From contig CP136065.1 of NCBI GenBank assembly GCA_032622095.1, forward strand, positions 149,859,577 to 149,923,576: DNA of 64,000 bases, read 5' to 3'. The stretch comes from Siphonodentalium dalli. Lineage: Eukaryota; Mollusca; Scaphopoda; Gadilida; Siphonodentaliidae. A program made the translations under genes and the position numbers. Below, one piece after another: positions 631 through 63,423 of the stretch; position 1 is the first letter of the stretch; each line of letters opens with the position of its first letter. The notes beneath the pieces were generated by a model. That model did no database searches, had not been told where the DNA came from, and saw only the letters and a list, made by a program, of their open reading frames with translations.

Positions 631-764
631 CTGTTAATGGTATATGGTAAGTGATAGCTTTTAATCCGCTTCCTCCTTTCACCAACACTTTGACTATATC
701 CAACGCACGTTTAACAGATGTGTCATCATTCACAGCTTCGAGATGCATAATGAACATTGTAATG
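631..764 (-). CDS. Exon 32, type B (unit 9), last in window
   Basis: The 134 bases are one base completing a Ser codon, 44 codons and a final G at donor ACAG|GTTTGT. The acceptor is GTCTTTCCAG. The peptide starts ITMFIMHLEAVNDDT and ends YHIPLTG. The entry is secure by phase; the donor is weak, so the 3' border is less certain. The following C exon lies outside the window. Confidence 0.72.
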
Positions 765-3700
765 CTGGAAAGACATAATAATTTGTCAATTAAATGATTG
801 AAGTGATCCAGAGGGAACAATCTCTCTGTAAGAATGTTTCGGTCTCATGCATGTGAGAAGCCTTCCACGAGGTACATGTATCAAAAAATAATACTACAGT
901 AATGCCCTAAATAATCGTCTCCTTAACCACAGCAGAATTATGGGTAATTTTTCAGGATTTAGTCGGAAATATGGCTTGTCTCAGTGAAATCCTGAAAAAT
1001 TACCCATAATTCTGCTGTGGTTAAGGAGTCGATTACTTAGGGCATTACTGTAGGGAAAACACAGTGTTTACTCATCTAACTCCGAGTCTCTTTATCTTAT
1101 TCAGTTCAATGGTTGAGAGTAGAAGCTTGCTCTATGATAACCCATTTTTTAGATGACTGTCACTAGAATTTTTATGGCAAATTATTCAAATTAAATTTAC
1201 AAGAAAATACAAAATTAAAATAAAATTCTAACGACAATAAAGATAATCTGGCATAACATTCCATAGTGAGTGGAAAAATTTCATGAGTGGATATGGACCA
1301 TAATATGAGGACAATATTACCTATCGAGTATCTTTTCAGGTTCATATTTTATCAGTAATTTCTTAACTATTGGTAGCAGTTCTTCCCACTTTGTCTCTTT
1401 TACATTGAGAAGTCGCTGCATGTCGAGCAGTGAGGATATACCATTTACATTGATCGCTATCTGCTCTATATCACGTGCTAACATCGCCAGCCAAGTAATC
1501 TTGTCCGTGTAAAGACTTCTCATTAACTGTGGATTAGAAATATACATTATTAACACTATTATTGGCTATCAAGTAGTTATTTAAAAAAAAGATATATTTT
1601 TGATGCACTATTTGAAAATGAATAATCCCATCCTAGAAATAACACATTTTCCAATATAATTACCAATTTCAAGTGGTTGGATATCATAGAGTTTGCCCCC
1701 ACAGCCTTGTAGCAGTCAATAGGAAAGCGTCTCTGACAACAAATGTGAAGGTGGCTTCACCGATATTTTTGTTGTGGGGAATAAAGGCTTGGCCCTATGT
1801 TAAAAGGCTTACAAGGTGCAAATCTTCAAAAAATAACACAAAAGTACAAAATAAGGAGAAAGATAAATATATGATGAACTCAGCTTTCCATACATACCAC
1901 TACTGTTGGTTATTGGTTTGTTAAAAATGCTTAAATTTGGTGTCATATAGTAACAATATAAGTTTATTACAGCCAAGAAATGCCGACCAAATCCCAAAAC
2001 AGTGGCAAACCTGGTTGTTGATAAATGTCGACGTGTTGGATAAAAGGATCAGAGGAGATAACTCAATATAAACTTACAGCTTCAGTCAGCTTGGATAAAT
2101 CGATGGATGATTTGATAGCTTGGGCCAGCTTTGTTGTGTTCTCGTTGCAGAGATTGGCACTCATTTCAGATATATTGAATAACAGCGATGACTCAGAAAT
2201 ATGCGACAGTCGTGTGAAGTTGCACAGAAGATTTTCTATGTCAGAGGTTGTTCCATTTAGCAGCATTCCCTGTGATGAATAAGGTGTTTTTAGTTGGTGA
2301 TATGATCCAGACTGGACATAAACAGATTGAACAAATTCACTTACGTGTACAAGGAAGTCCAGGAGGTTCAGATCATTGCGGTCTAGTACCCCGGACTGGT
2401 TTGGTTCAATACTGGTCCGATTATCTAATATGTGAATCAACTGCTTTATTAATTTAACAAAGCGGTTTCAATATATAATAGAAATCAAGTTCAGTCCAGT
2501 GGAATAACATCCCTCGAGAATATTTGTAGAATTTTATACCCATTGTTTCAAAGGGTAGAGTCGGTTTGATTGTCTTAATTCAGTTTCATCATTGGAAAGC
2601 TTCTTTTAAATAGCATGCAATATGCCATATAGAATCAAATTTTATTATTCTTGTGACAAAGGACAATTATCACTGTTGGATACATGATCAATAATGGTTA
2701 CTCACTTCTGAATCACATTTACCAAATGATGTTTTAATCTGGGTTGTTTCATCAACTTCGGCCCAATTAAAGTGTATCTACTAAGTCATCATTTATCAAA
2801 AAATGAAAACACTAATAGCTAAAAGCTCATGGCATATATATTTACATAGCCTGTTTGTTACACTAAATCCTGATCGGTGATTGATCAACTGCCAATTGGG
2901 TCATACTTTTCATATCCCAATACAACACACCATAACACGAACCGACATCACATCTTGCCGACATAGATGACTAAATGCTGCAGATAGAATAAGTGTGCAT
3001 GTCTTTTAAGTGCTCGGCCATTGACTAATCGATCGATCATTTAGTTAGAATATTGGGCTAACTTACAGTGCAGCATAGTATAATATACAAACTGCAGACA
3101 CATTTCAGAAGAAATAAAACAGATGAGTTTTTAGAAAAAAATGAGGAAAAAGCTATACAAATATAAGAAATGGATGTAATATGAGTGTGTTTTATTAAGG
3201 GGTATGTATGTCACTGTGGTTATTTGAGCACATTCAGTGTGAGTGTGCCCATGCAACAATCAAAGCACTATACCCTTCAATAAAACACACTCAAACTACA
3301 TTCATTTCCTACATAGACAGAGCACAATGTGCAACTTAATCGAGAATCTTTAATCAAATGTGTTGCAGACAGTGCAAGGAGAGTTAAAATTTGAGATTAT
3401 GATGCAAGTTGTGTTCTGCATTTAAACCACATCCCTTCTGTTTGGTAATTAAGTTTAAAGACATATTATGGACTTGTTTGGGTTTATGAAAGTTATAAGT
3501 TAGTACTCAGGTGCTATGCCAACCTGGGGAATGTAGCATTCTACTAACAACGCCGAAAATTTCAAAGAAGTTGACCTATGCTCAATTGTAAAATTTACAA
3601 CTTGGTTCGGGATGCAACTATCGGCGATAAACTGATTAAAATTATTTCTCCACTGAGAGTCATTGCATTTAATTAAGATATAGGAATGACGGTGAGTCTT

Positions 3701-15700: not shown

Positions 15701-18700
15701 AATCAAGTATGAAATACCTTTATTGGTCTGCATCATGATTTTCATTATGACCTCGAGGAGAGACTTGAAGTTCTTATTGCTGATCATATTCTGCACAACA
15801 TCAGTTTTCAGTAGATCTACTGCTCCACTTGTGAACTGAATAAAACTGGAAAACAGAATAATTAAAAAAAAAAAAATGATTACTACATTACAGGGTCTCT
15901 TATATATTAACCCTTTCTATCTATATACTCATTGAGATGTAGTTATACCTTCATAAATGTTCAGATAATAAGTTCAACAAACATCTATAGGCCATTTGTT
16001 GAACTTATTATTTGAACATTTCCCCCAAAGGAATAGTCATCCTTCCGCAAATTATATTTTATATGTTTGTATCTGTCATCTGCTTATATTTCCTGAACAT
16101 CCCTCCAAATGAATAATAGACCATTTGAATGAATAACTTTTTCTTACTGAATGAGAGAACCCACTTTGTAAACAAAGGAATAAATGTGCGCTCAGGACTA
16201 AAGGCAAATTTTTTGTAGAACCTAATTTAGGCCAAAAAAATTAATGTTTTGTTTGATGGGGACCGGCACATTAAATTGCAAACCGCATGTTGAACGTTTT
16301 TTCATGACATTGTATGTTTAATTTATTATCTGAACATTTCCCTCCAACAAATAGGACTCCTTCTGTACTTGTATTATCTGTCGTCTGTTTATTTTTCTTG
16401 ATAACCCATCCAGATGAATAATAGACCATTCCAATGTATACTTTTATAACTGAGTGGGAAAATCACTTAACCTTTTCAGTGCCAAGTCCGATTTTTGTAT
16501 CAACCCATATTTCCTTGATCATTTTTCAAATTTATTGATTAGAATAATGTGATACATTGATGGAAAGAGCTCTAAGAGCTCTTTCCATCAATGTATCACA
16601 TTATTCTAATCAATAAATTTGAAAAATGATCAAGGAAATATGGGTTGATACAAAAATCGGACTTGGCACTGAAAGGGTTAATGTCTCTCATTGAATAGAC
16701 TCGTTCCTGCAAAACTGCAAAAATCTGAAAACATAGTAACATGACCCCTCCAGCTTCGGTGATGCAGAATGAACAAACAGATCAATAGAAACTGAATAAT
16801 GTAACACAGACTGAGAATTTATGCAAAATTCTAAAAAAAGATGTGAAGAGATAAATGTACTACCTATTAAAATCATAGAAAATTTCATCTAAGAAGTCTG
16901 GAATTCTCTCAAAACAAACTCCACTGTCAGCAAAACTTTTTGTGGAGTCGCCAGAAAACATCTTTGAGAATTCACTGTTCAGATCATTCATATCTAAACA
17001 TATCTGCGTGGATCTGGATGTCTTTCTAAAAGCTTTTATCTGAAAACAAAAATATGTGTAAGATGTTAACTCTTTCTTTACTACATACTCTTTGACAAGT
17101 ACTTCCCTCAGGAAATATTCAAATCATAATTTCAATAAACAACCATTGGTCTTTTGTTGAACTTATTATCTGCACATTTACCACCAATGAACATGAATCC
17201 TTCTACACTTGTATTCTCTTTTTGATTCTATTACATGAACATCCCTCAAAATGAATGGACCATTCCAATGAATACTTTTATAGCCAAATGGGAGAATCCA
17301 TTTAATAAAGAAAAGGTTACAGTGATCTGGAACACTCTGCTTGGTTGATTGAATGTCAAATGCTGTGCCCAAGACTATTTTTCGCAAGTTTTTCACTGAA
17401 TCATTTTATTTTCGTTAATCATCATCGATACTCTTCACGTGAAAGTTCTACTTTTCAATTTACAATCTTCTGTACTCTGTCTTATTTGCATGCATTTTAT
17501 TTAAATGGATTCATTTTTTCATTCTTCATCATTTTTAGCCCATTCTCATTTCATAGGTGTTCATTTTGACGGTTTGTAAGGTATCTTATAAAATGAGAAA
17601 CTGAAAAAAAAAAAAAAATTTAAATAAAAATGAGCCAGACCACCCAATATATTTTGCACAAGATACTATAAACAAGGATCCCTTTCATCGTTTTGTTTCC
17701 TGAAATGGTATGATCAATGTGGTTGGAATTTTCAGGCAATATTATTTGAATTCTACATTCTTTCAGTGGGCAAAGTGCTGGAGTACTCCACTTTTTAGTT
17801 TGCATGGTTTGGAATGATCAGATGATAATATCAACAAATGACATCAGAATTTTGTTAAACTGTTTGTTGCACTTATCATCTGAACAATCCCAACAAAGAA
17901 ATATATTGGAATCATTGAACTACACTTCATACGAATTCATTATTCAGTAAGGCCATGCGGCCTGATAATTCACTTTTACAAAAAACAATTGGAAGTGAGT
18001 TTTAAGGTTGACTTCATTACGAGAGAATCCAAAAAATGTTGACTAACTGATTACATATTACAACCCTTCTTCAATGGGCACATAAAAACATATGAAGAAG
18101 AATAAAGTTTAACCTCTTTGCTGCTAAATGACATTATGATGTCGTGTGCTGGGCTGTTGACATTGCCATTATCCGATGGAAAAAATATAACAGCAATATC
18201 ACAAGAACCATATTTAAACACTGACTATGTTGAAAGGCTATTATCGTTCACAATCGTGGAACATCATACAATGCTTGACACTTCAAGATACAGTTATTCC
18301 AAAGCACCAATCTCTGAGTTCCTGTTAATGAATAATGGCCTACTGCTAGTGTGCTGAAGTAGTTCCGTAGTACCTATGGACCATATAGCACACTACGTGC
18401 ACTTTTACGTCCATAATAGTTATGGACGTCATAGCAGTGAAGAGGTTAAGAGACTATAGAACACAACAACGTACATGAATAAAGATAATTCTTGTCGCTT
18501 TTACGTACCTTATCCAGTTCTGTGAGCAAATTATTTCCAAACACTGAAGTCAAAGGCGAAACACTGAATTCTTTGGATGCGCACATCTCTTGCCCTGCAG
18601 CTATAAAGTGTATATTTGTTGTGAGTAATGACACTTAAAGGAATGCAATAACCATTGTTATGAGCTAAATATAGATATTAAAAGGCTGCTTGGCCACACG

Positions 18701-21700
18701 TTTCCCAAAAAAGGTGGCTTTTTGTAAGAAAACAAATTTGACAACAATGATCAGAAATTTTGAACTTGACCTGTATATTAATGTGAGTAATCCATATAGC
18801 AAATTTTAAAGCAATCGGATAACTATAACTAAAGTTAACATCCAGAAAACGAAATAATTAGCAAAATTATAAGTCAAGGGCTATAACTCGGGTAAAAATG
18901 TGCAGACCTCACCCATAATGTAACTTGACCTGTGCCCCTAATCAAAAAGCTCACAAACCAAATATTGTTTAATTTCGTAATTATTAAAGAAGCTATCACT
19001 GGGAAAGGGATGGACGGATGGACACTAGCGATTTCTATAGTCCCCCAAATTTGTTTCAGGAGGACAACTATTAACGCATGTGATACTGGCTGTCATGCAG
19101 TTTATGACAAAAATACTATTATTTTACCTCACATTAACCCTTTCTATACTAAATACTGATTGACAAGTTGTTCCCACAGGAAGTGTTCAGAAAATAAGTT
19201 CAATAGGTTGTTTGTTGAACTTATTTTCTGAACATTTACCTCCAATGAAAATGAATCCTTCTGTACTTCTATTATCTTTTTTTCCGACTGGTGACCGCTA
19301 ATTTTTCCTGTACACCAATCCAAATGAATAATAGACCATTCTATTAAAATATTTATTTTTATAACTGGGTGGGAGAATCCATTTAGTATAGAAATGGTTA
19401 AGACACTGTTAATTCCCCAATGGATTCTATTACTCATTTCGCAATGTTTCCCTCCCACTAAACATAGCTGGTCAACAAAGTTTTGGATGTTTACAACTCA
19501 GACCGAGACGTCCCAAAGTAATTGATCGAAATATTCGAAGATGACCCTTTTTTGTTTGATAGCCCAAGGACTTCTTAATTCTCAAAGATCATGAACAGTG
19601 GTGTTGTCAACAAACATTTCGCAGATGTTTCATCTTCTGACATTGCAAAGTTAATCGATGATAAAGACAGAAAAAGTACAACCAACAGTACTAGTGTCTA
19701 GAAACCCATATTCAGTCACAACTCAAGGGACATGTCTGTTCGGTATAATAAATGGCCTCAAGAGATATTGGTTCCTCGGGGAGACAATCCACATATTCCC
19801 CCTCAAGCCCAGTCATCATTTTTATATTGAGACCAGGGGATTGCCCGTCAAAAATGACAGGTCTATAGAAGAGTTCTGTCAGTTTACTGAAGCAAGCGGG
19901 ATAACTCTAACTTATATCGATCATCCACTTTAGGGGGACGGAAATTTGGCCATCGCGACCCTTGGACCGATGTGCTATATCTTAGGATATCTTTAACTGA
20001 TCAGCCTGAAAATTTTGTTGTTGTATTCTAAGATGTTTCAGATCGTATGTTCTAAATTTGGGCTACATTGGACGCATGGTAGAAAAGTTATTAATGCGCC
20101 AATAGCATGAATGAGTTACACACACAGACGACAAGTTTTTTACAGATAGATAGGATAGCACGAAAAGCTGGAAATCTTGATTGCAATCCTTCAGCGATCA
20201 CAAGAGTGCCAAAAATAATCAGCTAGTGAGGCATTTATGCAGTATTGTGTTTATTACAGGTTCATGCAACATCCCCTAAATCTGATGTTACCTGAAGACT
20301 TACTCATGCTATATTCTATTTTGTAATGCACAAAGACTATTTAATTTTAATGTTCCATTTGCATTTTCAAGTCTGATGTCATTTATGTTGTATGTCTTCC
20401 AATGTCTATAGCCATTCCACATAAACCTATAATTATGAAATTACACTAGCAACTATATAACAGACAATAAAACTGCAGTAATGCCCTAATTAATCGACTC
20501 CTTAACCACAGCAGAATTATGGGTAACTTTTCAGGATTTAGTCGGAAATATGGCTTGTTGCCATTCATCTGAAAGCTCTCCCCGAACCATATTTCCGACT
20601 AAATCCTGAAAAGTTACCCATAATTCTGCTGTGGTTAAGGAGTCGATTAATTAGGGCATTACTGTATTATGGAATTTGGCCATATGCCAATGGATGCTTT
20701 CACAATATATGATGACGATTTTTGTATTCTATGAATCTTCATGTCATATGCTGAAAGTGTCTTAACCCTTTCTTTACTAAATGGATTCTCCCATCAGTTA
20801 TAAAAGTATACTTTGGAATGGTCTATTATTCATCTGGAGAAGTGTTCAGGAAATGTAAGCAGATGACAGGCTGCGAACAGAGAAAACATGTGCAGAAATA
20901 AATGGGAAATGTTCAGATAATAAGTTCAACAAACAGGCTTTTTGAACTTATTATCTCAACATTTCCTAAGCCAGTAACGGAACTACTTGTCAATGGATAA
21001 TTAGTAAAGAAAGAGTTAACCCTTTCAGTGCCAAGTCCGATTTTTGTATCAACCCATATTTCCTTGATAATTTTTTCAAATTTATTGATTATAATAATGT
21101 GATACATTGATGGAAAGAGCTCTTAGAGCTCTTTCCATCAATGTATCACATTATGATAATAAATAAATTTGAAAAATGATCAAGGAAATATGGGTTGATA
21201 CAAAAATCGTACTTGGCACTGAAAGGGTTAAGCTATCTAATATTAACTCACCGATGAGTCGATTGTAATACACCTGATAAGTGTTCTTCTGCAGCATGTA
21301 GTGATTGAAACTAGACCAGAAAGAGTTGAATTCAGGAACATTCTCCACATATGTTACTGCTCTCTGGCACATAGCTGTAAGTCTGGAAGAAGATTTATCG
21401 ATTGATCTTAGTTAACCACTTTATCACTGAACGGAATCTCCCACTCAGTTATAAGAGTTTCATTTGAAGAGAACCAAGTAATTACTCGTGCACGTTTTTT
21501 GCTCAAAAAGTGGGTACTGGGCTTACTCACGAGGACCCCCATGTGCAAAAATATTATGTTAGCCTTCAGGTGCCAACCTACCATCATGTTTTATACCAAT
21601 ACCATATAGACAGTTCTGTACATTTGGAATAATTTTGAATAAGGTTGTACATTTTGGGATTAATTTGTAAACACAATAGGGTTGTATGATGAGTTCACAA

Positions 21701-24700
21701 GTTAATTTAGTTACACTAATGATTATTAATGAAGCTAATTCTGATAAAAACACAACAGGTCACTCTTCTGCATTATCAAAGGATCCAACAAAAACACTAA
21801 GTGATTACTCCACATCCCATTGAATTTACTCTGATAGAGGTGTGAACAATAAGTGACACATCCTTTGATTTTATTGATCTGATACCTCTTTGATTGATCC
21901 AACAACTAAGAATAAAATAAGCTGTGTATAATTCACAACAATATTAACACAAGTGTATACTATTATACATCTTTATTATTTAAGAAAAACAACTGGAAAA
22001 AATAATAAAAGATGTGCTTGAGTATGTTATCCTATTTTGCAGGACATGATTGTATTCACCTTCCAAATGCTCAGAAATGGGGGTGGGCTTATCTACGAGG
22101 ACCACCCCATGTTTTGTTTAGGGTGAAAAACCCAGACTGTGCTTATCTTTGAGGATGGGCTTACTAACGGGTGTATACAGTATTTCACCGAAAATTCAGG
22201 AAATGAAACATACTTGAAAATAAGCCACAAAAAGTATAGGTTGTCCATTTACTTATCTCACAACAGCTTCATGTACCACTGACACTTCCAGATTCATAGA
22301 AAAAACAGGGAGGTAATTTTGGCAGATTTGGCTGTCAAGGCGCCATAAATCTCAATGACTTCACAGAGGTCAAGTCATCAAGATATAGTAATGCTCTAAA
22401 TAATTGACTCCTTAACCACAGCAGAATTATGGGTAATTTTTCCAGATTTAGTCGGAAATATAGCTTGTTGCAACAAGCCATATTTCTGACTAAATCCTTA
22501 AAAATTACCCATAATTCTGCTGTGGTTAAGGAGTTGATTATTTAGAGCATTACTGTAGCAAAAATCAGTCTGAAAGCTTATAGACAATTAAAGCACCAAT
22601 CAAATGCAGACCCTGGTACAATAAACAGATTTAATACTCATTTCTGTCAAAAATAGTATCTAAATATAATATTTCTCGGGTATGGCCGATGACCCCTGGG
22701 GGGGGGGGGGGGGGGGTGGCTTCTTGATAGTTTAACGACACCTAACTTATTAAAAGGTTGAAGAATACCAATTCACAGTTCATTTTAGGCATATAATGTA
22801 AGCAAGAGTCTGACAAACAAAAGGCTGCTGTGCATACCACACATGCACCAAATTGAATTTTGGACCTTGTTTAAATTTCCAGTTTTCAGTATTTTACATA
22901 CGGAAAGACAAGGGATTATAAGATCAACCAGATGGATGCATGCCAAGTAAGATATATGGCGACGATCGGATAAGGTATATGGCCTGTAGGGTGTGCCGAC
23001 GGAAATTGTTGATGGATGCATGGATGACTTACCTGTCCGCTGAATATGTGTTCAAGCTGGTCGTAGCATTGAGACCTGATAAAATGCCATTGAGCCAAGG
23101 CGTTATCTTGTCGAAATCTTTCTCATCGAGCACCATCTTATTAATCATTTCGACTAGATTCTTTGTATACTCTGTAGCTTTTGACCATGGGTTGAAAGTG
23201 TACTGAGATTCATTTGTAACCTGCACTATCTGAAGCACAGACAGGGAATATTAGGGTTATCATTATTTAACCAATGGGTTTACAATTTGGAAAACCCTGC
23301 ATATGTGATGAATTGCTATTTGTGTTTAGTAAATTACAAAACACAAATAGCAAATCATCACATATGGAGGGTTTTCCCTAACACAGTCAGGAATAACATG
23401 TTCTCAAAATGAAAGTAAAATTGAAGATTTATACATGTATACAGTTGAAGAAAAAAAACATTGTAAAATAATTTGTCACAATTTGTGGATTGTAAACTTA
23501 GGTATAAATCAGTATAAATGGTAAGAAATCTAATGACTCTTTCACCACAAACTGATTATCAACATGTTCAGTATATAATTGGACATGGTTCACTGTTGGA
23601 CAGGTTTTATTGGCAATTTTTTTTATTTTTGGCATTCCCAATTTGTTTTACTTATATACAATTATGTGCATCAATAAAGCAGTATTAGCTGATCATTGAC
23701 CATAAAAGGGACCCACTGCCCTTCATTGGATGCCTTGCCTTTGTGAATGTCATTGCCAATGTGTAATAAATACAGTTTAAGGCCCACTCAATTTTCAAGT
23801 CACCAATTATTTTTTTTATAGTGACTTGATGGATTGGATACGGTTTTAATAACACTCTATGCCATAAAATATGATTAAAATACTGTAATTCATCACCAAT
23901 TGAAACATCTGTGTCTCAGAAGATGCCCATAGAGAAATAGAAAACAGCTGAAATCATAGAATGATTCCCCCCATTTTGGCTCCCCGAAAAGATGAATTTT
24001 CAATGAAAATAATACACTTTTTACTAAAATCTAGATGACCAAAACATGTTAGTAACTAGAAAACAAAAACATGTTTACAGTTTATTACACCGGATAATTT
24101 GATGATACAATGTTTTGGAGCTTCCTCTTTCAAATGGTATATTTTTATATTTTATTCCTAATTAGACCATGTCCATTAGATCTTTTCCAAAACTATTCCT
24201 AAGTGGCAAGGAACTCACATTTGTAACTTCTTGTAAATATCTCGGACATGTTCTTACTGAATACCTTTCAGATGATGGAGATATTGAACGACAATACCGT
24301 GCTATTTGTATACGGTCTAATATGATAATTAGGAAATTTCCTAAATGTTCTAATCAAGTCAAAGTGATTTTATTTCAGCATTATATTTCTCCATTAAACT
24401 GTGCTCATCTTTGGGGACAATTCACCAAACGCTGTTTCAATAAATTAACTGTGTGTTATAATAATGCGTATAGGATGTTAATGGGTTATGAAAGAAGATG
24501 TAGTGCAAGTGGTATGTTTGTCAATGATCGATGCTGTCGCTAGGGATGTTGAGGAGAAAGTGTGTGTTCAGTTTTCGCGAGAGAATGAAAGATATGAACA
24601 ATTCAATCATTTAAATGTTTTTCAATTCAGATTTAAAATACTTTTCCAAAATTTTCATTGTTGGAACGAATTATTGTATACTATATGATTGATTAATGAT

Positions 24701-42700: not shown

Positions 42701-45700
42701 CGACATGAAACAATCCAAAAAAGTTTTCACGTCAGCAGAGAACATTGGTTCTAATCCATGACCATCAATTGGGATTACATCATATCAGTCAAGCCAAGCA
42801 TTATTATCAGTAATATGCAATAAGCTAATTTGGCCTGTCAGGCTGTGTTAACCCTTTACCCAACAAACCGGCCAAAACCGGCCAAATAAAGCTTCAACAG
42901 CCTAAAATATCTTCGGTCTGTCTCAATAGAACCATACAAATATGGATATCATTGGAACCGGCTCCTTGACCACATTGTGATAGTTACAGTTATGCCCTGT
43001 GCCAATGCATTCTCTTATATATGCGAGTCGACCATAGGTCGCCTCGCATATATAAGAGAATGCATTGGCCTAAAAAAAATCTTTTTTTAACACTTTTTAC
43101 CATTTTTTCTTACATTCTTTAACAATTTTATAATTTGTAATGTGTTAAGCCAATGCATTCTCTTATATATGCGAGGCGACCTATGGTCGACTCGCATATA
43201 TAAGAGAATGCATTGGCACAGGGCCCTTCTGTTGGGTAAAGGGTTAATGCAATGGTCAAGACACTGGAGATGTTTAGATTGAAATCTTCTAACCTCGAGG
43301 CCAAACACCTACAGACTATACCAGTCTATTCCTGTGACAGAAAACTATTACCCATTAGTGAGAATATCTTCTATTTCCAGAAGTCTGTGCAACATTCCAC
43401 AGCAGTTTCTTTAGCTTCGAATGAGACATGAAAGGTGCCACGCTATAGTCAGTATTAAATGAGGGCATTAACACACCTGATTATACGTTCATCTACCACT
43501 GGACACAATTTCCTGATAATTAAAGAAAGTATTCTAACCTTTCATACTGTTGAGGTGTTGGGTGATCAAAGGTATGAACACATTAGCTGTGTTTATGTAT
43601 CTCGCCATTGACTGGTCCACACCAGGTATCATTTTCACGAGGGACATCGACCTAAAATGTTGAAATAACATATTATACCCTGGATTATATATCAAGCAAA
43701 AGTCTGTTCATCCCCTGAAAGATCAAATGACAAGACTATACCCATTATAATTTTAAAATAAGCTATCAATTCACAGAATACTGTAAAACAATTGGTTATA
43801 TGCCAGCTGTAAGCTTGTTTAACCCTTCCATGACTGGAGCTTCCTGAACCTTTGCGAAAACCCTGTGCCAATGCATTCTCTTATATATGCAAGTCTCCCA
43901 TAGGGAGCCTCCCATATATAAGAGAATGCATTGGCCTAACAATATTTACCTTGAGTTTGTAAGCCAGTGCATTCTTTTATATATGTGAGGCTCCCTATGA
44001 GAGACTCACATATATAAGATAATGCACTGGCAAAAGGTCTTTAATGCTGCACTAGTGTGGCTCCCATCATGAAAGGGAATAACTGGCTGATAAATGAAAA
44101 TAATAAAAAAGTTTCACTGCAACTGAATGCATGATTGACAGGTGCTTATTCCTATGCAAGGCATAATTGTTACTCACAAAGAACTTGTCTAATTTTATGA
44201 AAATATGTTAAGAAATATGCGCATTATAGAATTTGTAGATCAATATTTTTGGCCATAACTGCATAAACTTAATCAAAAGAAGAGTTATTTCTTAAATAAA
44301 AGAAACATTGATACTGTATCTCAAAATGATACAACATAATGAAACAATGATGGGAACAATGAATGGGAATTACAGAATGAGCCATCAGCAATTATTATGA
44401 AAGTTTTAAAGATGTGGTAAGCATTGGCAGTGGGTATTGCTGTTAAAATAGTCACAACGGTTAAAACTGCCATAAACAGAAAGAATATGATATTATAGGC
44501 AAATTTTGTTCTTACACCAATCATAAATTTTGTGTAAATTGCATGTTATTACTCTGTGTTATGTAAACACATGCCATGTTATGTAGACAAACAGTACATA
44601 AAGAGTATGCGATAAGCAAAACACGCAACACCGGGGAGACCCTGATAAGGGAACTTTGGTTAGAAATGCCACCAAGTTGTTTACAATATAATGCTTGCTA
44701 ATCCACGCCTCTCAAGATTTCAGTGTTGATTGGGTCACCATGAATCACTCTCCTAAACAAAATTGCCATGGTGTTGAGTGTTTTGCTTATCGCTCATTAT
44801 TTACGTGCTGTATATAAACAAATGATCGGCTCACACAAAGTGTGTTTCACGGATAATATTACATCCATCCTATCACTATACTATACTATTAGTATATTCT
44901 TCAGGAATGTTTCATAATTTGGTAACTGTTATTTCAAATTTATAACCTATAACGAAGGCCATCCGTGCCTTTAACACATACCACTTTTCAATTATAGATG
45001 CCATCTGGGTAGAGAGAAGTTCCTGGAGTTTCTTCGTGAGTTCCTGCGAAAGCATTGGATTCAGCATTCCTGATGTCGGATTTATCGGCTGCTGAAGATA
45101 CTTTTGTATGAGGGCCACTGAATCAGAGAGAGTTTTAACAATCTGTGCAATATCAGTGGTCTCGTTACTTGTAGAGAGCGATTTCAGATCCATGGATGCC
45201 AACTGCAAAGAGCAAAATTAAAAAATAGCATTTATGGAAATACATACATATGATATCTTCGATTATCATTAAAGATGGTGTATTTCTTCCTGGATCTTTT
45301 TGTATGGATTTGAAGGTGCAAATAATAATTTTGATATATAATCACCAGATAGCTCAATTTAGAAGGTTTCGGCACCTTTGGCCTTCTTCAGAATTTAATA
45401 TAAGGGAGACAGATACAACTTCTAAGTAAACAATAAGAATAATCACGATTATGTAATATTGTTTACTTAGTAGCCCCTTTGCACATTAGGGGCCTGTGAC
45501 AGACATTTCCTACTCTTTTATATATATTGATCATATTATTATGCTACTTCAATAAATCCTTCGACAAATAGGTTCATATTGGACCTAAATATTGACATTG
45601 GTTCATATTGGACTTATTTGGTTCTGATATAAGTCCATAGTGTACGTATACCCGTTATTCTTTTAGAAAACACATCTATAAAGGGTGTACATCTGGTGCT

Positions 45701-48700
45701 GAAATAGGACCATAGTGAGTGTACGTTTGTTTGTTATTTATTTAATTAAATTTTTTTAAATCAAAATTTTGTATAACTAACACTGTTATAATCTCCGCCA
45801 GGGTACCCCGATTAACCACACCAAATTTGAAATCGGTCTATGGGACTGGGAGAAAAATCCAAAGAGACAGACAGACAGATGGACAGACAGACAGATCCTA
45901 CTCTTTTATATATATTTTTTCTGGAGAAGGTCAAAAACTTCTAATTTGAGCTATCTGGTAATTATATATTTATACAACGTCCCTGCATTCCCTGCAGAAT
46001 GAGGTCCCCATGCAGAGGGTGAATTTGGTTATGCTAGCCTGCTGTGCAGGGTGGCATCACTAAATTTACCCTCTGGGGACCTCATTCTGCAAATGTTAGA
46101 CACACTATATCCAGGCTTGTGATAATCACATAGATGATGAGATGTAAGCATTAATATAGTCCAACATACTGATAGCGATTCCAGCAAATCATTCATTACA
46201 CATTACACCATGTGGTCCCTACATATACCCATCGATGTTTACCTTTTGAAGCACTCTGGAAGCTTTGGCTGCATGCTCAATGTATCTCCACAGAAGCACG
46301 GTGTTGTTACTGTCACACATGTGCTGCATGAAACCATTCATAAGAGCATCGGTAGCGTTATTTAGAACAACAGCTTGCTGGAAGGCATCCGAGTCACAGA
46401 GCGTTTCCTTTGGATTTTCAGAGGACAATATCTCTTGAAGCTGGAAATAAATGGACTGACTCAATAAAAATAAATAATCATTCATACTACTTTAGCAAAC
46501 ATACTTTTATGCAAGATAAACTAGATAAGAGACCATTTATTCTCTAAATTTAGAGATAGAACAAAATTCAGGACAAATGGGATATGGTTAGATGATGGCG
46601 AGTACAAACCCATACTACATGAACAGACACCGGGTAACATATTTATCTGTTCCAAATAGCACTTCAAATATAAGAAATCATAATAACATTTAGCTGTTCA
46701 ATTTTGACATCCTTCAATATCTCGATCACACCGAAAAAAGTTAATTAATTTTTCGGGTTGAGGTTCCTACATAATACTGAAAGTTTTTTGGGGGTTGTAA
46801 TTTCCAGAACAAGGCTGGCACATAATACTGTAAAATATCCTTGTTTTAGCCACTAGGCCATGTCACACCAGTTTTAACCCTTTCATGATGGGAGTTGAAT
46901 TTGTGCAGCATTAAATATCCTGTGCCAGTGCATTATTTATGCGAGTCTCCCATAAGGAAAGACAATGCACTGGCTTACAATGTCAAGGAAAATATTGTTA
47001 GGCCAATGTATTCTCGTATATATATGTGAGGCTCCCTATGGGAGACCAGCATCTACAAGAGAATGCATTGGTACAGGGTTTTCACAAAAATTCTAGCAGA
47101 TCCAGTCATGGAAAGGTGGAGTATAAACTGTGCAAATGATTAATTTCACTGGTAAATCACTTCAATGTATACATAAACTAACACCTAGTGTGTGGGAATG
47201 CACCACCCCCTCCCTTAGTGCTGTATTCAAGTCAGTTCTATGGTGTTGCTGTCAGATCGGATGCTTATGATAATGGCTGCTCCTATACTACATATAACGT
47301 AGGTATCATGCGCGCATTAAAGAACACTACCTTACTCGTATTTAAATTCGCGCAGTACTATATTTCGCTCAGTTTTGAATTCGCGCACCTATCTGCACGA
47401 ATTCAAAATTGACAATAATATTTTCCTAAAAGTTTTGAATCTGATGACATTTTCAGTTCTTCTAATCGTTCCTGAAGATACATAACGCGACAGATTTACA
47501 TTGTGCATGTAAAACACAACTGCATCATCAATGCCTTGTGAGGATGTGTGTTTGTATGCTCCATTACTCCAAATAATTGTTCTAAGTGATATTTTATTGA
47601 AATAGTTATAGACATCATTGGAATGAACTCGAAAAAAGTAAAACCACAACCACATACTGTAGGCAGCTGACTTCAGAAAAAATAAACACTTGACTGTGGG
47701 TTGTGTTGGCATAAATAATTCAGTTTGTTTGGTCATGGTGTCACTCCATGCATTGTTGGTAGCTGGTGGCGTACGTTCGGGCATCTTCAGCTGGCACATG
47801 TATATTTCTTACATGTATTTCAACAGTGACGATGTTACCATAATTTGTTGCTTTACATAATTATGAGTCATGTGTTTTATGTTGGTCACCTTATAAAAGC
47901 AGGTCTAGTTATCTATATTCAGTCCAGCCTATCCTAATGTATGTAACTCCATCCATCTGCTTTTCCCTGTGGTTCGCTATAAACTCAGGAATCATACTAT
48001 TTTTCGCTCAGTTTTAAATTCACGCACCAATGGGTGCAGATATCCCAAAAATATTTGTTAACACGCAAATACTCTGATGATTGTCCGAACAATTAAACAC
48101 TGATTTCCTGATAATGTCCCGAAATAGTCAGAAAACAGCACATAATATTTTTCTAGCATTTTTTTTATTTCCGAGATGCATTTATTTTCTTTAACTATTT
48201 TGGATTATGATTAATGGTAGTTTTAATTAATGTTCGTCAACAGCAGATTCTCTGAGCGATCTTGGCCGATGATGCTGTGACAATGTCTGTGGCCAAAAAA
48301 TAAAGCGAAATCATAATATATTTCTGAAAGAATCCCGATAATTCAAAATTACTCACTTTTCCGAAATTCGGTCATTTCCTAATATATCCAGTAAGGTAGC
48401 TGTATTTGTTATTGGGATCTGTCAGGAAATATGATGATTTCCCGGTAGTAGTGATGAAGCCTAAAGCTTACCTTTGTGATGTTGATATTAGCCTGCAGTA
48501 ACTCATCAATATTCTCGAATGCTGTGATGATGGATTGTACTTGCTGATTGAGCATAGTCGCATTTAGCAGAGAGTCAAAACTCATGGGTGATTCTGAAAT
48601 AAAGATATAGTGAAATTAGCGAAAGGGATGCAATCCAGCAATAAAGCACATACATTCAATGAATACCATTGGTATCATCAGTGGCCGAAACAGCAAGGTA

Positions 48701-51700
48701 CATAGTGCGTTAGGCTGTCATGAGGCGTCCAGTGATCAATGTTTGCAATGGACTCAAAATTGTTGGGCCAAAATTAGGGCCATCTCAAAACTTTTTGGGC
48801 CATTTTAAAATTGTTTGGTCATTTATTCTTCATGAATGCACAACTAAGTAAAACTAAATGGCACAAAACATAATATTTAGTCCACAGATCTCCTGGTGCG
48901 ACAACCCAGCCATGAGTATATACCTTTATACAAGGTTTATAACTATCGGACCTATATTGAGCATAGACTCACTTGCGATCAAAATTCATCCAAATCCCCT
49001 GTGCATGAGATAATGCCACATATTCACACCTTTAATTTGATGTATCTCCCGCAGATCACCAAAGATATATACATGAATATGTGCACTCTTACGAAACCAG
49101 GCAAACCCGTATACAGATTCCAATGAAATATAGCATAGTAGTACTGCAGAACTTATACTGCTGAGATCACATACACAGGAGCATACATGGTGAATCATTG
49201 TGACAAGTGAAATTCTGCAGTACTACTATGCTATATTTGCAGTGCCAGGTAAGAACCATATAAACTTTCCCAGATATACAAATCATGTTACCCTCAATTT
49301 TCATGGAACATCAATATACACTTATCGGGAATCATACCAGCTTTACAGTCACTGGGGTCTGTGGTTTCTATACATACAGTGGCGGGATTTTATAGTGAAA
49401 TTAACCCCTATACAGTATTTCTGCCACTGATAATACCAACCAATGTCATGATATGGCCTGGTGGTTCAAACCCCAAGCAATTATCAACTAGACTACAGAT
49501 ACCAGTGGCTGTGCATAACACAAATATAGTCATTAAAGATGCATAATCCAAATTAACGCTCGCAAACTACTATTTCCTTGGCTTCAGGGGTAAAAAATAT
49601 TTGATTTGAGTCGAGGAACGCACCCATCAAAGCTCAGTGACAAGATATCAATTTTTAAAATCTATTATGCTTTCACCACCGATACCTTTTAGTGGCCCAC
49701 TCAAAAGTAGACTAGAAGACGGTCTTGTACCAAATTGTGGATAAAGATGGATAACTCTAAAATCAAGTGGCTTTTTTGTGTCAGATATTTGACAAACCGG
49801 CAAAATTTCGTTCAACAAAATGTTGATAAATAACAGGTTTTGGGCAATTCTATACTAATGTTGACTGCGGTTAGAATTATTTTTGCGCAATTAATCGATT
49901 CTGATAACTGAAGAGACATTTAAAAAAATGTTGTTGTTGTTGGAATCAAGATGATATGGGGACCATCAAATCGGATTGAGTACCTTTAAAAATAAGGAAA
50001 TTAGTTGAATAAACAGTTGAAAGGTCCCAGAATATATTATATGCCAACCATAATAAAGCAAACTAACATGTAATTAAATAAGTGTGGTTATGTTACTGAT
50101 AACTCGACTATTCATTCCAGTGGCCATATTAAATGTTACCTGTCAGTGCCCGCATTTCCTGGTTGAATGACTTGGCCCACAAGTTGAGTGTTGCCAGATA
50201 CATGTATATCTGTTGTCCTGTCTGTGAACTGTTCAGCAATGGCTCCATAACTTTGTTTAGACTACGGATGAAATTTAAATATGTAGTGTGTGTAGATAAA
50301 TTAGATGGGACAAGACATATATCACTGTGTTAAATTGAAATTGTGAAAATTGTATTTAACAAAAATAGAATTGTATCTATAGCCACTAATTATATCATAA
50401 TGAAAGATTGTTCGATTAGATATTTCGAAATATGGCTTGAGCGATTTGATTGCTTGTAAGTTTGATCCATCATAAGTGTTTATCAACTGCACAAATTATA
50501 TATTAAGGTAAATTATCTTCACATATGTTACAATTGGAATTAAAAATAACCAATTGATTTAATGAATACTTGCATACACTTCTATAGGGATATCCCTGAA
50601 TGGTCTATTCTTTATATCTTGGAGACATTCTATCTTGGAGGCATTCTAATTATATAAGCACATTAAAACAGTACAAAATGAATTCTCGTGCATTCATTAG
50701 ATAGGGCGTTCAGATAATGAGGCTATTTATTTAACTTGCATCCCTACATATGAATGAGTAGATAATTTGCAACTACCCATTGACAAGTAACCAGCTAATG
50801 AAGTGATGAACAATTAACCCTTTCTTTACTAAATACGCATTGACGAGTAGTTTCCTTAGGAAATGTTCAGATAATAAGATCAACAAACGACCATGTTGAA
50901 CTTGTTATCTGAACATTTCCCACCAATGAATATGAATTCTTCTGCTGTTATATTATCTGTTTTTCTGTCTGTCGTCTGCTTTTATTACATGAACCCCCCT
51001 ACAAATGAATAGTAAAACATTCCAATGTTTACTTTAACCCTTTCAGTGCCAAGTCCGATTTTTGTATCAAACCCATATTTCCTTGATCATTTTTCAAAAT
51101 TATTGTTTATAATAATGTGATACATTGATGGAAAGAGCTCTAAGAGCTCTTTTCATCAATGTATCACATTATTATAATCAATAAATTGGAAAAATGATTA
51201 AGGAAATATGGGTTGATACACAAATCGGACTTGGCATTGAAATGGTTAATAACTAGGTGGGAGAATCCATTTATTATAGAATTTTTTTTAAATGTACTTA
51301 CAGATCAACATAATCCGGGTATTGGGATGTTATATTCTCAAGATTTGCAGCCATGTTGTTACTGAGAAGTTTATCAGGGTCCATGTTGACAAGTTTGTTC
51401 ATGTCAATTCCATCAAACGAGACAGATGTCACATTCATCATTCCCATAATGCTTTCGGTCAGCGTCTGGATAGCTTGTGCATACTTTTCATAGTCTATTG
51501 GAATTGATGAATTGTACTTCTTTATCTGTTTATAGAAGGAATCCAATCATCAAACAATGGTGATAAGACAACCTTATGATGAGGCACCTCTCTCATGACT
51601 TGAAAAAAGGCTCACTTCAAAATATTGCATTCGGCCGTTATTCATGACTGGAATTCAGAGATTGGTGCATCACAACCATTGAAGTTTTGAAACAATGATA

Positions 51701-54700
51701 ATAGCCCTTCAATATCAGTTTTAGGGTTTCCTGATATTCCAATTATATTTTTCCATTGAAAAATGTCACTACGGCCCGGCATATGCTGTCATAACATCAT
51801 TTATCAGTGAATAGGTTAAGGTCACACCAAGTCAAATTCCAGTTCGAATGTCCGCATGTGCATGGTACCAGAACCCCATGTAATCATTTTTATTTCCCCT
51901 TCAATCTGTCGTTGAAAATTTTAATCTAATTTAATTTAGAGTGGTTGGTGTTGAAGAAATAATGGAATTATTACATGGTACATAATTGTACTTCAGATAA
52001 AATCATTCAGATTCGATTTCAAAATTGTCTTTTGATCCAATATTTTCACCTACCATGTTTGGTGGTGATCAAGTAAGTAACTGGAATTATCATTAGGAGA
52101 TCAAGATAACTTTAATTTACCATAAAATGACCACATCACTGATAGGGCCTATTATTAATTCATTTATTGTGCAGGCAGATATAAGTGATCACAAATTCTC
52201 TTTAATACAATTGTTAGAGAGAAAGCTCTACCACCATGGCCTCAAAACCATAATAATGGTATAATAACCAATAGTTGGGCTAAACAGTATGTATTATATT
52301 TACCTTTGAGATGAGTTCATCAAATTTGACAGCGTCGTCTAATTGTGACACAAACAGAGAGCTGTTGAAGCCACACATGCTGTTGACGATGATAGTTATG
52401 TTGTATGATGGTGGTATGGTGAAGTACTCATTAAGCATATCTGCACTGCACAGCAACTCCTGTAGTTTTGTTTGGTCCATTATAATGGTTCCAAATTCTT
52501 GATTCTGCAACAAATATGGGAACTAGACACTAAATCCTGAAAAATTACTCATAAATCTGCTGTGGTTAAGGAGTTGATTATTTAGTCGGAAATATGGCTT
52601 GTTGCCATTCATCATAAAGCTCTCAGTGACGGACGGACGGACGCCAAAACACATGGATGGACAGGCCAATAACATAATACGCATATTGGATTTTTGAGAA
52701 AATTGAAAACTAAAAAAAATATAATGGAACACACACAAAAATAACTGATAAATTGTGAGTTTGACAAAAGTGAAAATGTAAATGTGCACAGATGAGAACA
52801 ACAAAAACAGAAAGAGATCTAGCCGGCAATGTACATCAACATATTATATAAATGAGCACTGATTCACCTACATTGTCTTATTTTGAATTGCAAAGAAGTA
52901 AAGATTGGTCACTTGATTAAGAAAGTACACAGTTCTAGCGGCTAATCATTATTTTTATGAGTAAGCAAGTGTACTGATTACCCGTTGACGGATTAAGGGT
53001 TTCATGGAGATCGGATGATAATCAGAGAAGTGATTGTTTACTATAGCCTTGAAACGTTTTGGACAAAAAGTTTGGCCAAAGGATATTTTCTTTTGCAATT
53101 TTCAAAAATAAATTGGCCACTGACAGTAATGAATCCTGCTTTTCAGGCTCATGTCTCGGATTTCACAAAGACAATTGATTCGCCCATTAGTAAATAAAAC
53201 AGAGTACGTATTAGCTCCAATGATGTGAAAAATGTATGACAAAATAAGTTCTAATAGACAGTATGAGCTATGCACAATACCGACTGAGCTGCTGGCCCCC
53301 AGTCATTAAAGCAAAACAGATATACTAACTTTATCTTGTTTGAGTTTTATATTCATCAGGGCTGAGGCAAAGTCAGTTTCCAGATTTGATGTCATTTCCA
53401 GAATTCTTCTTAACTCTGTTGCATTTCGGAACAGCGAGCCAAGATTAATGACTCCATCAACGGGGCTAATCTTGTCCATGATTTCCTGCATGGTGTCAAC
53501 GATCACCTTTCCTGCATTGACGAAGGAGTTAATACTCTGCATTATGGGATCTTCGAGTGCCGATGATGACATGCTATTGTATGTCTTCATCATATTCATC
53601 AGGCTCTGTGTGCTGTAAGATTTTTCAAGAGCTTTTAAGGCATCAGAAAGACCTAACGAACCAGATGAGAACATCGCAATCATCTTCTGCTGCATCGATT
53701 GTGACTTCTCCAAGATGAACTTCCAGTCTGGTTTATAGGTCGTATTCGATAGTTCCGTCATCAGATGCATGAGGTTCAGACTTTGGAGAATTTTTCCGCC
53801 AGTACTGTTACCACTGCAATCACCGGATACGATGTCACATGTACCCGCTTCATTCAAAGTTGAGAGCAGATTCGTTATGAAAGTATTCGGGTCCGAGATT
53901 ATAGCTGTGACATTCGTATCCATGTTCATCGCGCTGAAGACTTTCTTCAGTGATGGCAGACTGTCGAGAAGAGCTAAGAGTGTTGTGTTGGTGGTGTCCA
54001 CTTTAGTGAGATCATCTTGTAGTAGCTGGAGTACACTCTGTACTATTAAACCATATTGCCGCATCGACTCCATCTCTGGATACATTGATAGTGTATCCAT
54101 CATTGCTACAAGCCTGAAAGTACAACCAAAGTAAAACTGAATACTACCTTATTTATATTTAATTCGCGTTGAACTATTTGTCGCACAGCCATTGGTGAGC
54201 AAATTTAAAACTAGTGCAACTCCTGAGTTTATACCAAACCACAGGCTATATAAGAGGGCTGCGTTAATGAGTAACATAAGATTGCATTGAAAAGACAATT
54301 ATATTCACATGTGACCAACCAGTGGTAAAATCTTCGATGATGCAATGCTCATAAAAAATTCCAGGATGAAGGGGCATGAACTCAACTCTCCATATTCACA
54401 ACCCTGGAGTGGTACGCCATCACATACAGTCTGAGTTAATTTTAATAAACACATGTATCTTCAGGAATGATCTGAAACTCTCATCAGATACCAGACATTT
54501 ATGAACATATTTAAATAGGAGTACGGTAACTGCACAGGGATCATTTGAACATATAAATTATATATACATTATTGGGAAGAGGGATATCAAGGCATACCTA
54601 TGCAATATATTTCTGACAGAACTTGTGAAGTGGTCAGATCTATGACTTAACTAAATCTTTCCATATTGTAATCAAGTATTTCATGAGCCCTTGATACTGA

Positions 54701-57700
54701 TATGGTTAAATGTATCGATCGGAAACATAATACATGTTATCAAGAGCATAAAGGTGATATAGTAACTTAAAGTCAACAAGGACAATAACCCATGCCAGGT
54801 CTATGAGGATTAGCAGTAATGATTTTCATTACTCACTGTTGCATTGTATCATTGAGATTCTGTGTGCCTTGAACTCTCTGAAGTACTCCTGACCAGTAAG
54901 ACTCATTACTCCAATTAGGGTTAATCGGAAACATCACCATGGGAGGGTTCTCAATCCACTGAGATACATACATCTGTATACGTGTCTGCATGGCCATTAG
55001 TTCGGAATATTTCATTTCATTGCCCTAGAGAAAATGAATATACAAAGCTATCAACACAAATTCAGATCGAGATTATTCACCATAATAAACAACTGAAAAC
55101 ACAATATGAAGGTAGTTATGTGATTTTACAGGGAATTTATTATCGGTAGTCGGTCAAGAAGTGCCATAAAACAAACCAAGAAGGGATGCCCAAATTCGCA
55201 TCAAGTAGCAATGCACAAATCAAGCCAAAAAGACTCATTCATGATCTTGCTCTCCTCTTCAAATGATGCAAATTTGTATAAATAGAGGTTTCCACACATA
55301 TTTGTTAGTGGGAGGAGCTTATGGTTTCTAAGAAACTAATCTACATAAATAATTGAATTAGTTTTACAGCACCTGCCAATATGCTATAATACACACAAGA
55401 ACGTACTTACTTTTTGTCTTTAATTGTGAATAAATATGACGACTGTCCCGCAAAATGAAAATGAGTGGATAAATTTCCAAAATCATTGCACAGATCGAAA
55501 TTTCAAAACATAATGATTTGACAACAAAATCTATTTAAGCAACTTAACACTGAAAGTATGACTGGATATCAAAATTAGGGTGAACAAAGAATTTTCAATG
55601 CAAGCTGATTGGTAGAAAATATCAATCTGCTGATAAATTATTTGATTGACAGCTGTGGAATGGTCCATATTCTGCTATATCACATAGAAACATTTTTCAC
55701 ATAATTAGCCATTAAACCCGGCCTCATATCTTTTAGTAAGACACATTGTATTATCGACACATGGTGTGGCGTAAGAACTCAGCACAATGATTTCGATGTC
55801 AAAGATGGAAATTTATTATAATGTTAATTAGAATAGGAATTATGATATTCAATTTGTGTTGGGTTATTTATTTTTGACTGTGAGCTAAACATGGGTAATG
55901 AGGGTGGTTGAACAATTTTGCCAACATAAAAAGACACATTTAAAATGGAACTATATTTGTTCTTGAAGGTGTCTTTACTACCTCTTTGGTTGTGATATGA
56001 AAATCAATATTATTTTTTTTAACCGCAGCCATTTCGAGATTGTTTTTTCCTTGCTAAATGTGATTATGTGATAAAATGGATCTCAAATTTGTTGCAATTC
56101 TATAAAAAAGTCTAACAAACTTGTCCACTAAATGTTATTCGAGTCTCGCTAAAGCTCGACTCGAATCAAATTTAGTGCACTTGATTAATAAATTTTGAAT
56201 AGAATTGCGACTCATTAGAGATCTACTATATATTGTACAATTTACCTTTTGCATGAGTTCTTGCACATCATAAGCAGTCTCAAATTCATTTCCAATGGCT
56301 GTTAGATTTATCGTGCAAAATCTGTACTGCAGTAGTGTGATATTCAATGTCACATGGCTTGGTATCGTGAGATAGTAGTCCATGTTGGTGCAGAATTTAT
56401 ATAGTGCTTCCGTCATATTGGTGATGGAATACAATGTATTCAACTGGAAAAGAAAGACGTTTAAATGTACAAGAATTTTTTTGTATACACAGTATATAAT
56501 ATCATCAGGGGGTAATTCTTTGAAGACAAAGCAATGTTCACAGCTGACTTTTCATCTAATAAATCAACATGATTAATATAATTCCCACCAGCTATCATCC
56601 ATATATTTATGCATGGATGTGAGACATTCTCTGAATACAAGGAAGGAATACAAGGGACAACAAAGGAAGTAACATTAGCATATTACTATGGTAATCATGT
56701 GCTACGTTCCAATACCAAGACGTCATCAAGAGTTGTTGAGACCCCTGACATGAGTCTGCATGTGCATGAGAGATGACTGCCATGTGATTTAGGCATGATT
56801 GAATCAGTTTTACGTTGAATCATTGCTGCGTTCACATATAAGTTTCCACACTGAAACTTTGCATGTTCATAAAACTTTGAAAAATATTTTCTGCCAGAAA
56901 AATTTTCAAAAATGAAGAGTTCAGTATGAGAACTGACAGCTTTGAAGAGATACAGCATCTTTATATAAACAAATCACACACTACAAAATTTTATCATTAT
57001 ACCTTATTATTATTCATGGATGCTAGTAGTGTTTCTATAACCCCAGGTTCTTGTAGCAATTCAAAGAGTTTCTTAGCTTCTGTTGTTCCATCAAATAATT
57101 TGTCTAGCATTATATAGTTCGAGCCTGAAAAAAACAAAGTTTACAGATATGAGCAATCTTTAGACAAGCTAATTTGATGTGTATTAGTCTGCTCGGTTGC
57201 ATGCTTTATAAATTGAAATAATAACATTCTTCTCTACAATCTTTTGGCCTTTGGACTTCTACAGCCAAAATATTACATTTCCTGACAATAACATTGTAGA
57301 ATAGTTATAAAATATGCATTGAATGGACTGTTTGCTTTATTACCAATGTCTGCTTACGTTTTCTTCTTAAAATAGTTATATTTCACCAGAATATGATTCT
57401 AAGAAAATATGTTGCTTTCTTGTAATACCCATCATTATATTTGATAATTTAGCCTATATAACCAAGCAGGAAAATCAGAATATATTCCAGATAACAGCAG
57501 AACTTATTTAAAAAAAATAAAAAACTCAAAACTAATCTAACATACAACGCTACATTACAGATATACAAAAACTATACAAATGAATATAACTGAAATGATA
57601 GATATGTATAAACTGGAATTTGAATACCGATTAGATAGTGCTCGGTGTTATTAATGAAAATAAAGACTTGATTTTTGGTGTAAATAATCACAGTTAACGA

Positions 57701-63423: not shown

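Follow-up and report, generated by a model that had tools for sequence, protein, structure and literature searches.

Probable serial duplication of an ABCA1/ABCA4-type lid in the giant ectodomain of a scaphopod ABCA transporter

Background

The ECDs of ABCA4 and ABCA1 are made up of a base, a tunnel and a lid, the last of which is hollow and mobile (PMC7932691, PMC8219669). In ABCA4 the lid is the distal subdomain of ECD1, covers residues 101-300 and is located between C81 and C324, with a disulfide linking C75 and C324, while the lid is highly divergent between ABCA1 and ABCA4 (24 % versus 50 % overall) (PMC8501128). Human ABCA4 exon borders, as given by variants, fall at c.302, c.442, c.570 and c.768, which correspond to codons 101 (phase 2), 148 (phase 1), 190/191 (phase 0) and 256/257 (phase 0), respectively (PMC7544654). 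Borders have likewise been reported for ABCA12, at c.1061 (phase 2), 1287 (0), 1782 (0), 2332 (1) and 3179 (2) (PMC6503032, PMC10048568). A 4.8-kb exon of human ABCA13, situated in this part of the gene, is mentioned in the title of a 2002 paper by Prades (cited in PMC7948424 and PMC13161189). According to previous descriptions, the long N-terminal region of this protein shows neither homology to known human proteins nor a well-conserved domain (PMC7948424), and its structure has been termed largely unexplored (PMC13161189). No account of the ABCA12 or ABCA13 ectodomains in terms of lids or tandem repeats was found in the open-access literature.

The ABCA gene of Siphonodentalium dalli described here has in common with ABCA4, ABCA1 and ABCA7 the first transmembrane segment (TM1), the region of exons 1-3 and a segment encoded by three exons, here termed B, C and D, together with its splice borders. 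Also common to these genes are the exons presumed to correspond to ABCA4 exons 9, 10 and 13, TM2-6 and NBD1. Whereas a single lid of ~200 residues is present in an ECD1 of ~600 aa in the former, ~18 such segments occur in tandem in the present gene, where ECD1 comprises ~4,200 aa.

Results and discussion

Gene model and splice phases

The window, that is, the whole stretch of 64,000 nt analysed (C5:149859577-149923576; window coordinate + 149859576 = genome position), forms part of a genome of 2.23 Gb in 9 contigs. The array and the gene are located on the minus strand throughout, and the gene is therefore read from high to low coordinates. Gene structure and splice phases are predictions from the genomic sequence. 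Exon chains were searched for using splice matrices and codon usage, with frame continuity required and without knowledge of any cycle. The phases 0-2, 2-1, 1-0 and 0-0 (exon types A, B, C and D, respectively) were found to recur in this order over most of the window, so that the cycle claimed in the first-pass annotation was recovered by a search blind to cycles, and the same order was observed far outside the window on both sides. Approximately sixty of the array exons are derived from this search, while five (B0, D0, DA15, B16 and B17) were placed or re-bordered with the expected phases in view. The splice scores of some array exons are modest.

All thirty-two exons previously claimed for positions 631-63423 could be located on the minus strand, which the first-pass annotation had left unstated, with GT-AG borders in 32/32 (Table 1). 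Their lengths (A 185-224, B 113-134, C 86-128 and D 189-201 nt) are close to those first proposed, with the lower limits of C and D extending below the earlier values of 92 and 192 nt; in the whole array, the ranges are 164-242, 113-146, 86-137 and 165-210 nt, respectively. The cycle had been described for all of these exons, which is mostly borne out, but two exons, the fused exon F9 and the hybrid exon DA15, break the pattern. Similarly, the eight to nine repeats originally counted agree with the approximately nine units inside the window, but the array exceeds the window in both directions, its limits lying near +144.6 kb and -3.8 kb (window coordinates), with units U0-U7 upstream and U17 downstream. 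Eighteen units can be distinguished on the basis of D segments (D0 to D8, one in F9, D10 to D14, DA15, D16 and D17), a count that includes the short segment in F9 and the hybrid DA15.

When the flanking DNA was included, a model of 68 exons from the ATG (three leading and 65 array exons) was obtained, which is in frame, stop-free, bordered by GT-AG in 68/68 exons and encodes 3,835 aa. Eleven further exons keep the frame through to TM2 and beyond, which together with these 68 exons places the array between TM1 and TM2 of an ABCA transporter and gives an ECD1 of ~4,200 aa from TM1 to TM2. The gene model does not include a separate exon (84841-84954) or two coding-looking tandem repeats (92274-93068 and -19972..-19554).

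Table 1 Predicted exons in and around the window and copies of two repeats, in window coordinates
Feature	Position	Strand	Phases	Length (nt)	Remarks
Exon 1	182423-182480	-			ATG start, MGQFGRLIWKN...
TM1 exon	166693-166786	-			
LPSAG exon	166139-166265	-			
A8	63239..63423	-	0-2	185	
B8	60789..60919	-	2-1	131	
C8	57003..57124	-	1-0	122	
D8	56246..56443	-	0-0	198	One Cys pair
A9	54837..55024	-	0-2	188	
F9 (fused)	53330..54113	-	2-0	784	B9-C9-D9(short)-A10-B10-C10, intronless; 261 open codons
D10	52304..52504	-	0-0	201	
A11	51302..51525	-	0-2	224	
B11	50140..50261	-	2-1	122	
C11	48472..48593	-	1-0	122	
D11	46243..46440	-	0-0	198	
A12	44982..45202	-	0-2	221	
B12	43539..43651	-	2-1	113	
C12	38126..38253	-	1-0	128	
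D12	37383..37574	-	0-0	192	
A13	36551..36744	-	0-2	194	
B13	35518..35648	-	2-1	131	
C13	34923..35017	-	1-0	95	
D13	33036..33227	-	0-0	192	
A14	31724..31911	-	0-2	188	
B14	29684..29814	-	2-1	131	
C14	28126..28247	-	1-0	122	
D14	25638..25826	-	0-0	189	
A15	23033..23229	-	0-2	197	
B15	21252..21382	-	2-1	131	
C15	18509..18594	-	1-0	86	Alternative acceptor gives 92 nt
DA15 (hybrid)	16864..17039	-	0-2	176	Starts like D, with its Cys pair; ends in the phase of A
B16	15718..15845	-	2-1	128	
C16	5001..5125	-	1-0	125	
D16	2078..2269	-	0-0	192	
A17	1321..1526	-	0-2	206	
B17	631..764	-	2-1	134	
C17	-922..-804	-			Just past the window edge
D17	-3768..-3571	-			Just past the window edge
Palindrome copies	25196-25292, 27894-27990, 42992-43088, 43858-43954, 60505-60601, 62914-63152				
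RMRSPEGEFSDA repeat copies	507-630, 7975-8331, 30780-31225, 46013-46119				

ABCA features flanking the array

The ABCA-type identity first suggested for the gene was borne out by TM1 on one side of the array and TM2-6 and NBD1 on the other. The N-terminus has the cytosolic 'LxWKN' start, TM1 and subsequent LPSAG/Cys segment of ABCA proteins, with the cysteines equivalent to ABCA4 C54, C75 and C81 conserved. Downstream of the array, TM2-6 and NBD1 have ABCA1 as their best match (E 3e-120) among solved structures, with neither ABCA12 nor ABCA13 among those retrieved, and incorporate the Pfam domains ABC_tran and ABC2_membrane_3, so that the large ECD1 between TM1 and TM2, TM2-6 and NBD1 of the ABCA subfamily are all present. 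Towards the second half of an ABCA protein (TM7, ECD2, TM8-12 and NBD2), candidate exons reach -76 kb downstream, and the DNA examined stops short of NBD2.

Some further features were observed in these flanks. The Walker A motif of NBD1 (-39834..-39560) reads GHNGSSKTT rather than the usual GHNGAGKTT, without the glycine before the lysine, and this domain may be degenerate. A furin-type site, GKRRKREVTT, is inserted directly ahead of the conserved LPxHVxYKI motif, in an exon shortly before TM2 (-18877..-18742); cleavage there, if it occurs, could detach the giant ectodomain or leave it attached through disulfides alone. Farther upstream, at ~227 kb from the first exon, an intronless open frame of 362 codons (C5:150269167-150270093, minus strand) covers most of ABC2_membrane_3 (E 4.9e-25), while most other matches in the genome have introns.

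Similarity among the units

A four-exon block of about 210 residues had been postulated to have duplicated repeatedly; this reading is borne out, the block recovered here comprising ~205 residues. Comparison of A, B, C and D exon profiles, proposed earlier as a check on this claim, assigned 36/58 exons to their own type in leave-one-out tests (14.5 expected; binomial 2.6e-9), while in 100 sets of composition- and length-matched shuffles 16.6 +/- 3.4 exons were typed correctly (maximum 26). When D exons were excluded, 25/43 exons were typed correctly, with a shuffle maximum of 20. The D and C types are clear in this comparison, but the A and B exons are only weakly alike. A held-out D exon (133926-134123) scored 22 bits against the D profile. 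Leave-one-out analysis of whole units gave a clear signal in half of the units only and none in 6/12; exon-order permutations are uninformative for this test, as scoring is local. The phase cycle thus persists where exon-type profiles only partly recover the types, in agreement with the earlier contention that phases have been kept better than the protein sequence.

The cysteines provide evidence that does not depend on alignment. D exons, with 29 % of the length of the 3,742-aa array, contain thirty-six of its forty cysteines (1e-15), and a pair, usually 24-28 residues apart, occurs in every separate D exon. D13 contains three cysteines, the outer two 22 residues apart, D6 one extra cysteine, and the D part of F9 two further cysteines.

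A Pfam scan of the array exons returned nothing above chance, leaving the units without a Pfam family. No second array was found among the best-scored candidates of a genome-wide search, the sensitivity of which is limited by the short exons, and one other gene with a similar LPSAG exon was found (C9:155134232).

Identity of the unit

Exons 1-3 joined to B0, C0 and D0 gave a collinear match to ABCA4 in the PDB (E 8.8e-19; query 3-237 to ABCA4 6-245). In this alignment, ABCA4 residue 148 lies opposite codon 139, the B0/C0 junction (phase 1), and residues 190/191 lie opposite the C0/D0 border (182/183); extrapolated beyond the alignment, the end of D0 (residue 248) corresponds to 256. The B/C, C/D and D/A borders coincide with the human ABCA4 exon borders 4/5, 5/6 and 6/7 and, as both borders and phases agree, B, C and D can be equated with human ABCA4 exons 4, 5 and 6. 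Furthermore, the cysteine offsets in D0 (14 and 39) are those of C205 and C230 in ABCA4 exon 6, and the interior D exons have the same pair at nearly equal offsets and the same exon phases. At the level of the predicted sequence, homology to ABCA1/4 and a common cysteine register are evident.

At the opposite end of the array, C-D of U17 had ABCA1 142-235 as top match (E about 0.01) among 177,635 PDB sequences, with ABCA4 153-251 lower in the list (E 0.63). The exons after U17 resume ABCA1 347-630 and ABCA4 366-644 (E 4.5e-23), and include exons of 137 nt (1-0), 117 nt (0-0) and 177 nt (2-2), which we take to match ABCA4 exons 9, 10 and 13. On the basis of the matches of the first and last units to ABCA1/4, the two ends of the array can be recognised as copies of a single ancestral segment. 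Since this segment is the lid, ABCA4 101-300, the ectodomain consists of tandem lids, and the array very probably represents ~18 serially duplicated ABCA1/4-type lids in ECD1 of one ABCA lipid transporter. The phase pattern would then have been inherited from ABCA exons 4-6, the unit being a lid with its ancestral introns.

Direct sequence matches to the lid are confined to the first and last units. In the PDB, no match of interior units to ABCA1/4 was detectable with profiles, and a C16-D16-A17-B17 query returned nothing; likewise, the averaged D profile did not find ABCA1/4 and gave one chance match. The high divergence of the lid itself between ABCA1 and ABCA4 helps to account for the far drift of the array copies. 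The only PDB entries matched by profiles of A and of B-C-D were of the kind of designed helical repeats and spike heptad regions, which were judged to reflect chance similarity in helical composition. AlphaFold2 modelling of the fused exon alone gave a mainly helical model of low reliability (mean pLDDT of 41), too poor for use in a fold search.

Alternative explanations

In principle, a search that keeps the frame in AT-rich DNA with many GT and AG sites might always yield some cycle, and the regular phases could be an artefact of exon picking, considering the modest splice scores and the five exons set with phases in mind. However, the ~60 exons from the cycle-blind search, together with a cysteine register, exon-type homology and 68 stop-free exons that no such artefact can produce, make its probability practically negligible, and the match to human ABCA4 splice borders already refutes it. 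Those borders also bear on the possibility that introns were gained at equivalent places in an intronless repeat, of which the 784-nt exon, the one intronless stretch of the array, would retain the primitive state. As the B/C, C/D and D borders are found in human ABCA4, where the segment is single-copy, the introns predate the array, and parallel insertion at the same phases seventeen times is implausible; this course of events is scarcely credible.

A further possibility is the insertion of a different domain into an ABCA gene, followed by its duplication, given that interior units have no direct match to ABCA1/4 and that no Pfam family is available for them. It is nevertheless considered very improbable, as the lid itself is matched by the units at either end of the array, with its exon borders kept, and the Cys pair, at near-equal offsets, and the exon phases are shared by the interior D exons.

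Origin of the array and its irregular exons

Serial duplication of the lid would have begun in an ancestral ABCA1/ABCA4-like gene, in which the lid was encoded on exons equivalent to human 4, 5 and 6 (B, C and D; 2-1, 1-0 and 0-0), and the B-C-D block would have been copied in tandem about seventeen times. The joining exon A (0-2) is most simply explained, from its phases, as a hybrid created by recombination inside exons at the first duplication, with a start like that of exon 7 (phase 0) and an end like that of exon 3 (phase 2); neither the A profile nor the C16-D16-A17-B17 query gave a match in the PDB that would point to its source. Subsequent selection may have preserved the frame-critical splice borders and a single Cys pair per unit, while the remainder drifted.

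Two later events would account for the irregular exons. The order of segments in F9 is B-C-short D-A-B-C, its 3' end being matched by the C profile (9.3 bits), and this exon is best regarded as a region that lost its introns, since these are present in single copy in human ABCA4. DA15 has the Cys pair of D but ends in phase 2 and thus stands for D plus A, presumably after deletion of one D-A border.

Shape and function of the arm

The equivalent of ABCA4 C324 is likely to be encoded in the exon at -9453 (ICGDD). If it is present, the two ends of the array are tethered together at the opening of the tunnel, and the array between them must form an outward loop. We envisage ~18 helical, glycosylated lid domains (95 N-glycosylation motifs occur), probably with one closing disulfide apiece, that would form a giant arm looping out where the lipid tunnel opens, with exit and return at the neck of the original lid. 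By inference, the function of this arm is most likely to be the binding and positioning of lipid or a lipid carrier, as is the case for the long N-terminal region in ABCA13. It is unlikely, but conceivable, that the tandem lids stack as a continuous hollow hydrophobic arm and that vertebrate ABCA13, and partly ABCA12, are built likewise with their introns lost; an ABC transporter would then feed or drain a lipid conduit tens of nanometres long.

Relationship to ABCA12 and ABCA13

A giant insert between TM1 and TM2 is common to ABCA12, ABCA13 and the present gene, the ECD1 of which has the oversized dimensions of the ABCA12/ABCA13 clade. Human ABCA12 exons 10-11 (from c.1062) comprise 226 nt and run from phase 2 to 0, resembling B plus C. 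Furthermore, ABCA12 c.2333-3179 (847 nt) is similar in length to ABCA4 exons 9-13 (838 nt), which leaves ABCA12 with ~1,230 nt in excess upstream, equivalent to about two units. The two-unit excess and the likeness to B plus C are suggestive only, while a link to ABCA12/13, on the basis of size and the published ABCA12 splice borders, is plausible. The 4.8-kb exon of ABCA13 differs from the nearly all short exons found here. For ABCA13, the present gene offers a testable answer, namely that such ectodomains grow through tandem duplication of the lid, a history recorded in the exon phases. The identification with the lid predicts where the units begin and end, the fold of the domain and a single disulfide in each unit.

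The array is a clean case of gene structure outliving sequence similarity. Gene structure likewise records homology better than protein sequence in the aphid bicycle genes, but these form a dispersed family of putative effectors (PMC9168663), as opposed to repeats within one transporter.

Repeats

Three types of repeats were observed. A near-perfect, MITE-like palindrome of ~75 nt (GCCAATGCATTCTCTTATATATGCGAG...) is present in many copies in array introns (Table 1). The tandem repeats left out of the gene model represent one and the same repeat with an open reading (LLVVMPPLFVVAASTTFAETVNNGFSSANSVQPALQARS), occur in two introns more than 110 kb apart and are probably a non-coding satellite. 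Finally, a dispersed repeat reading RMRSPEGEFSDA... contains acceptor-like and donor-like sites, and its copies (Table 1) are mistakable for exons.
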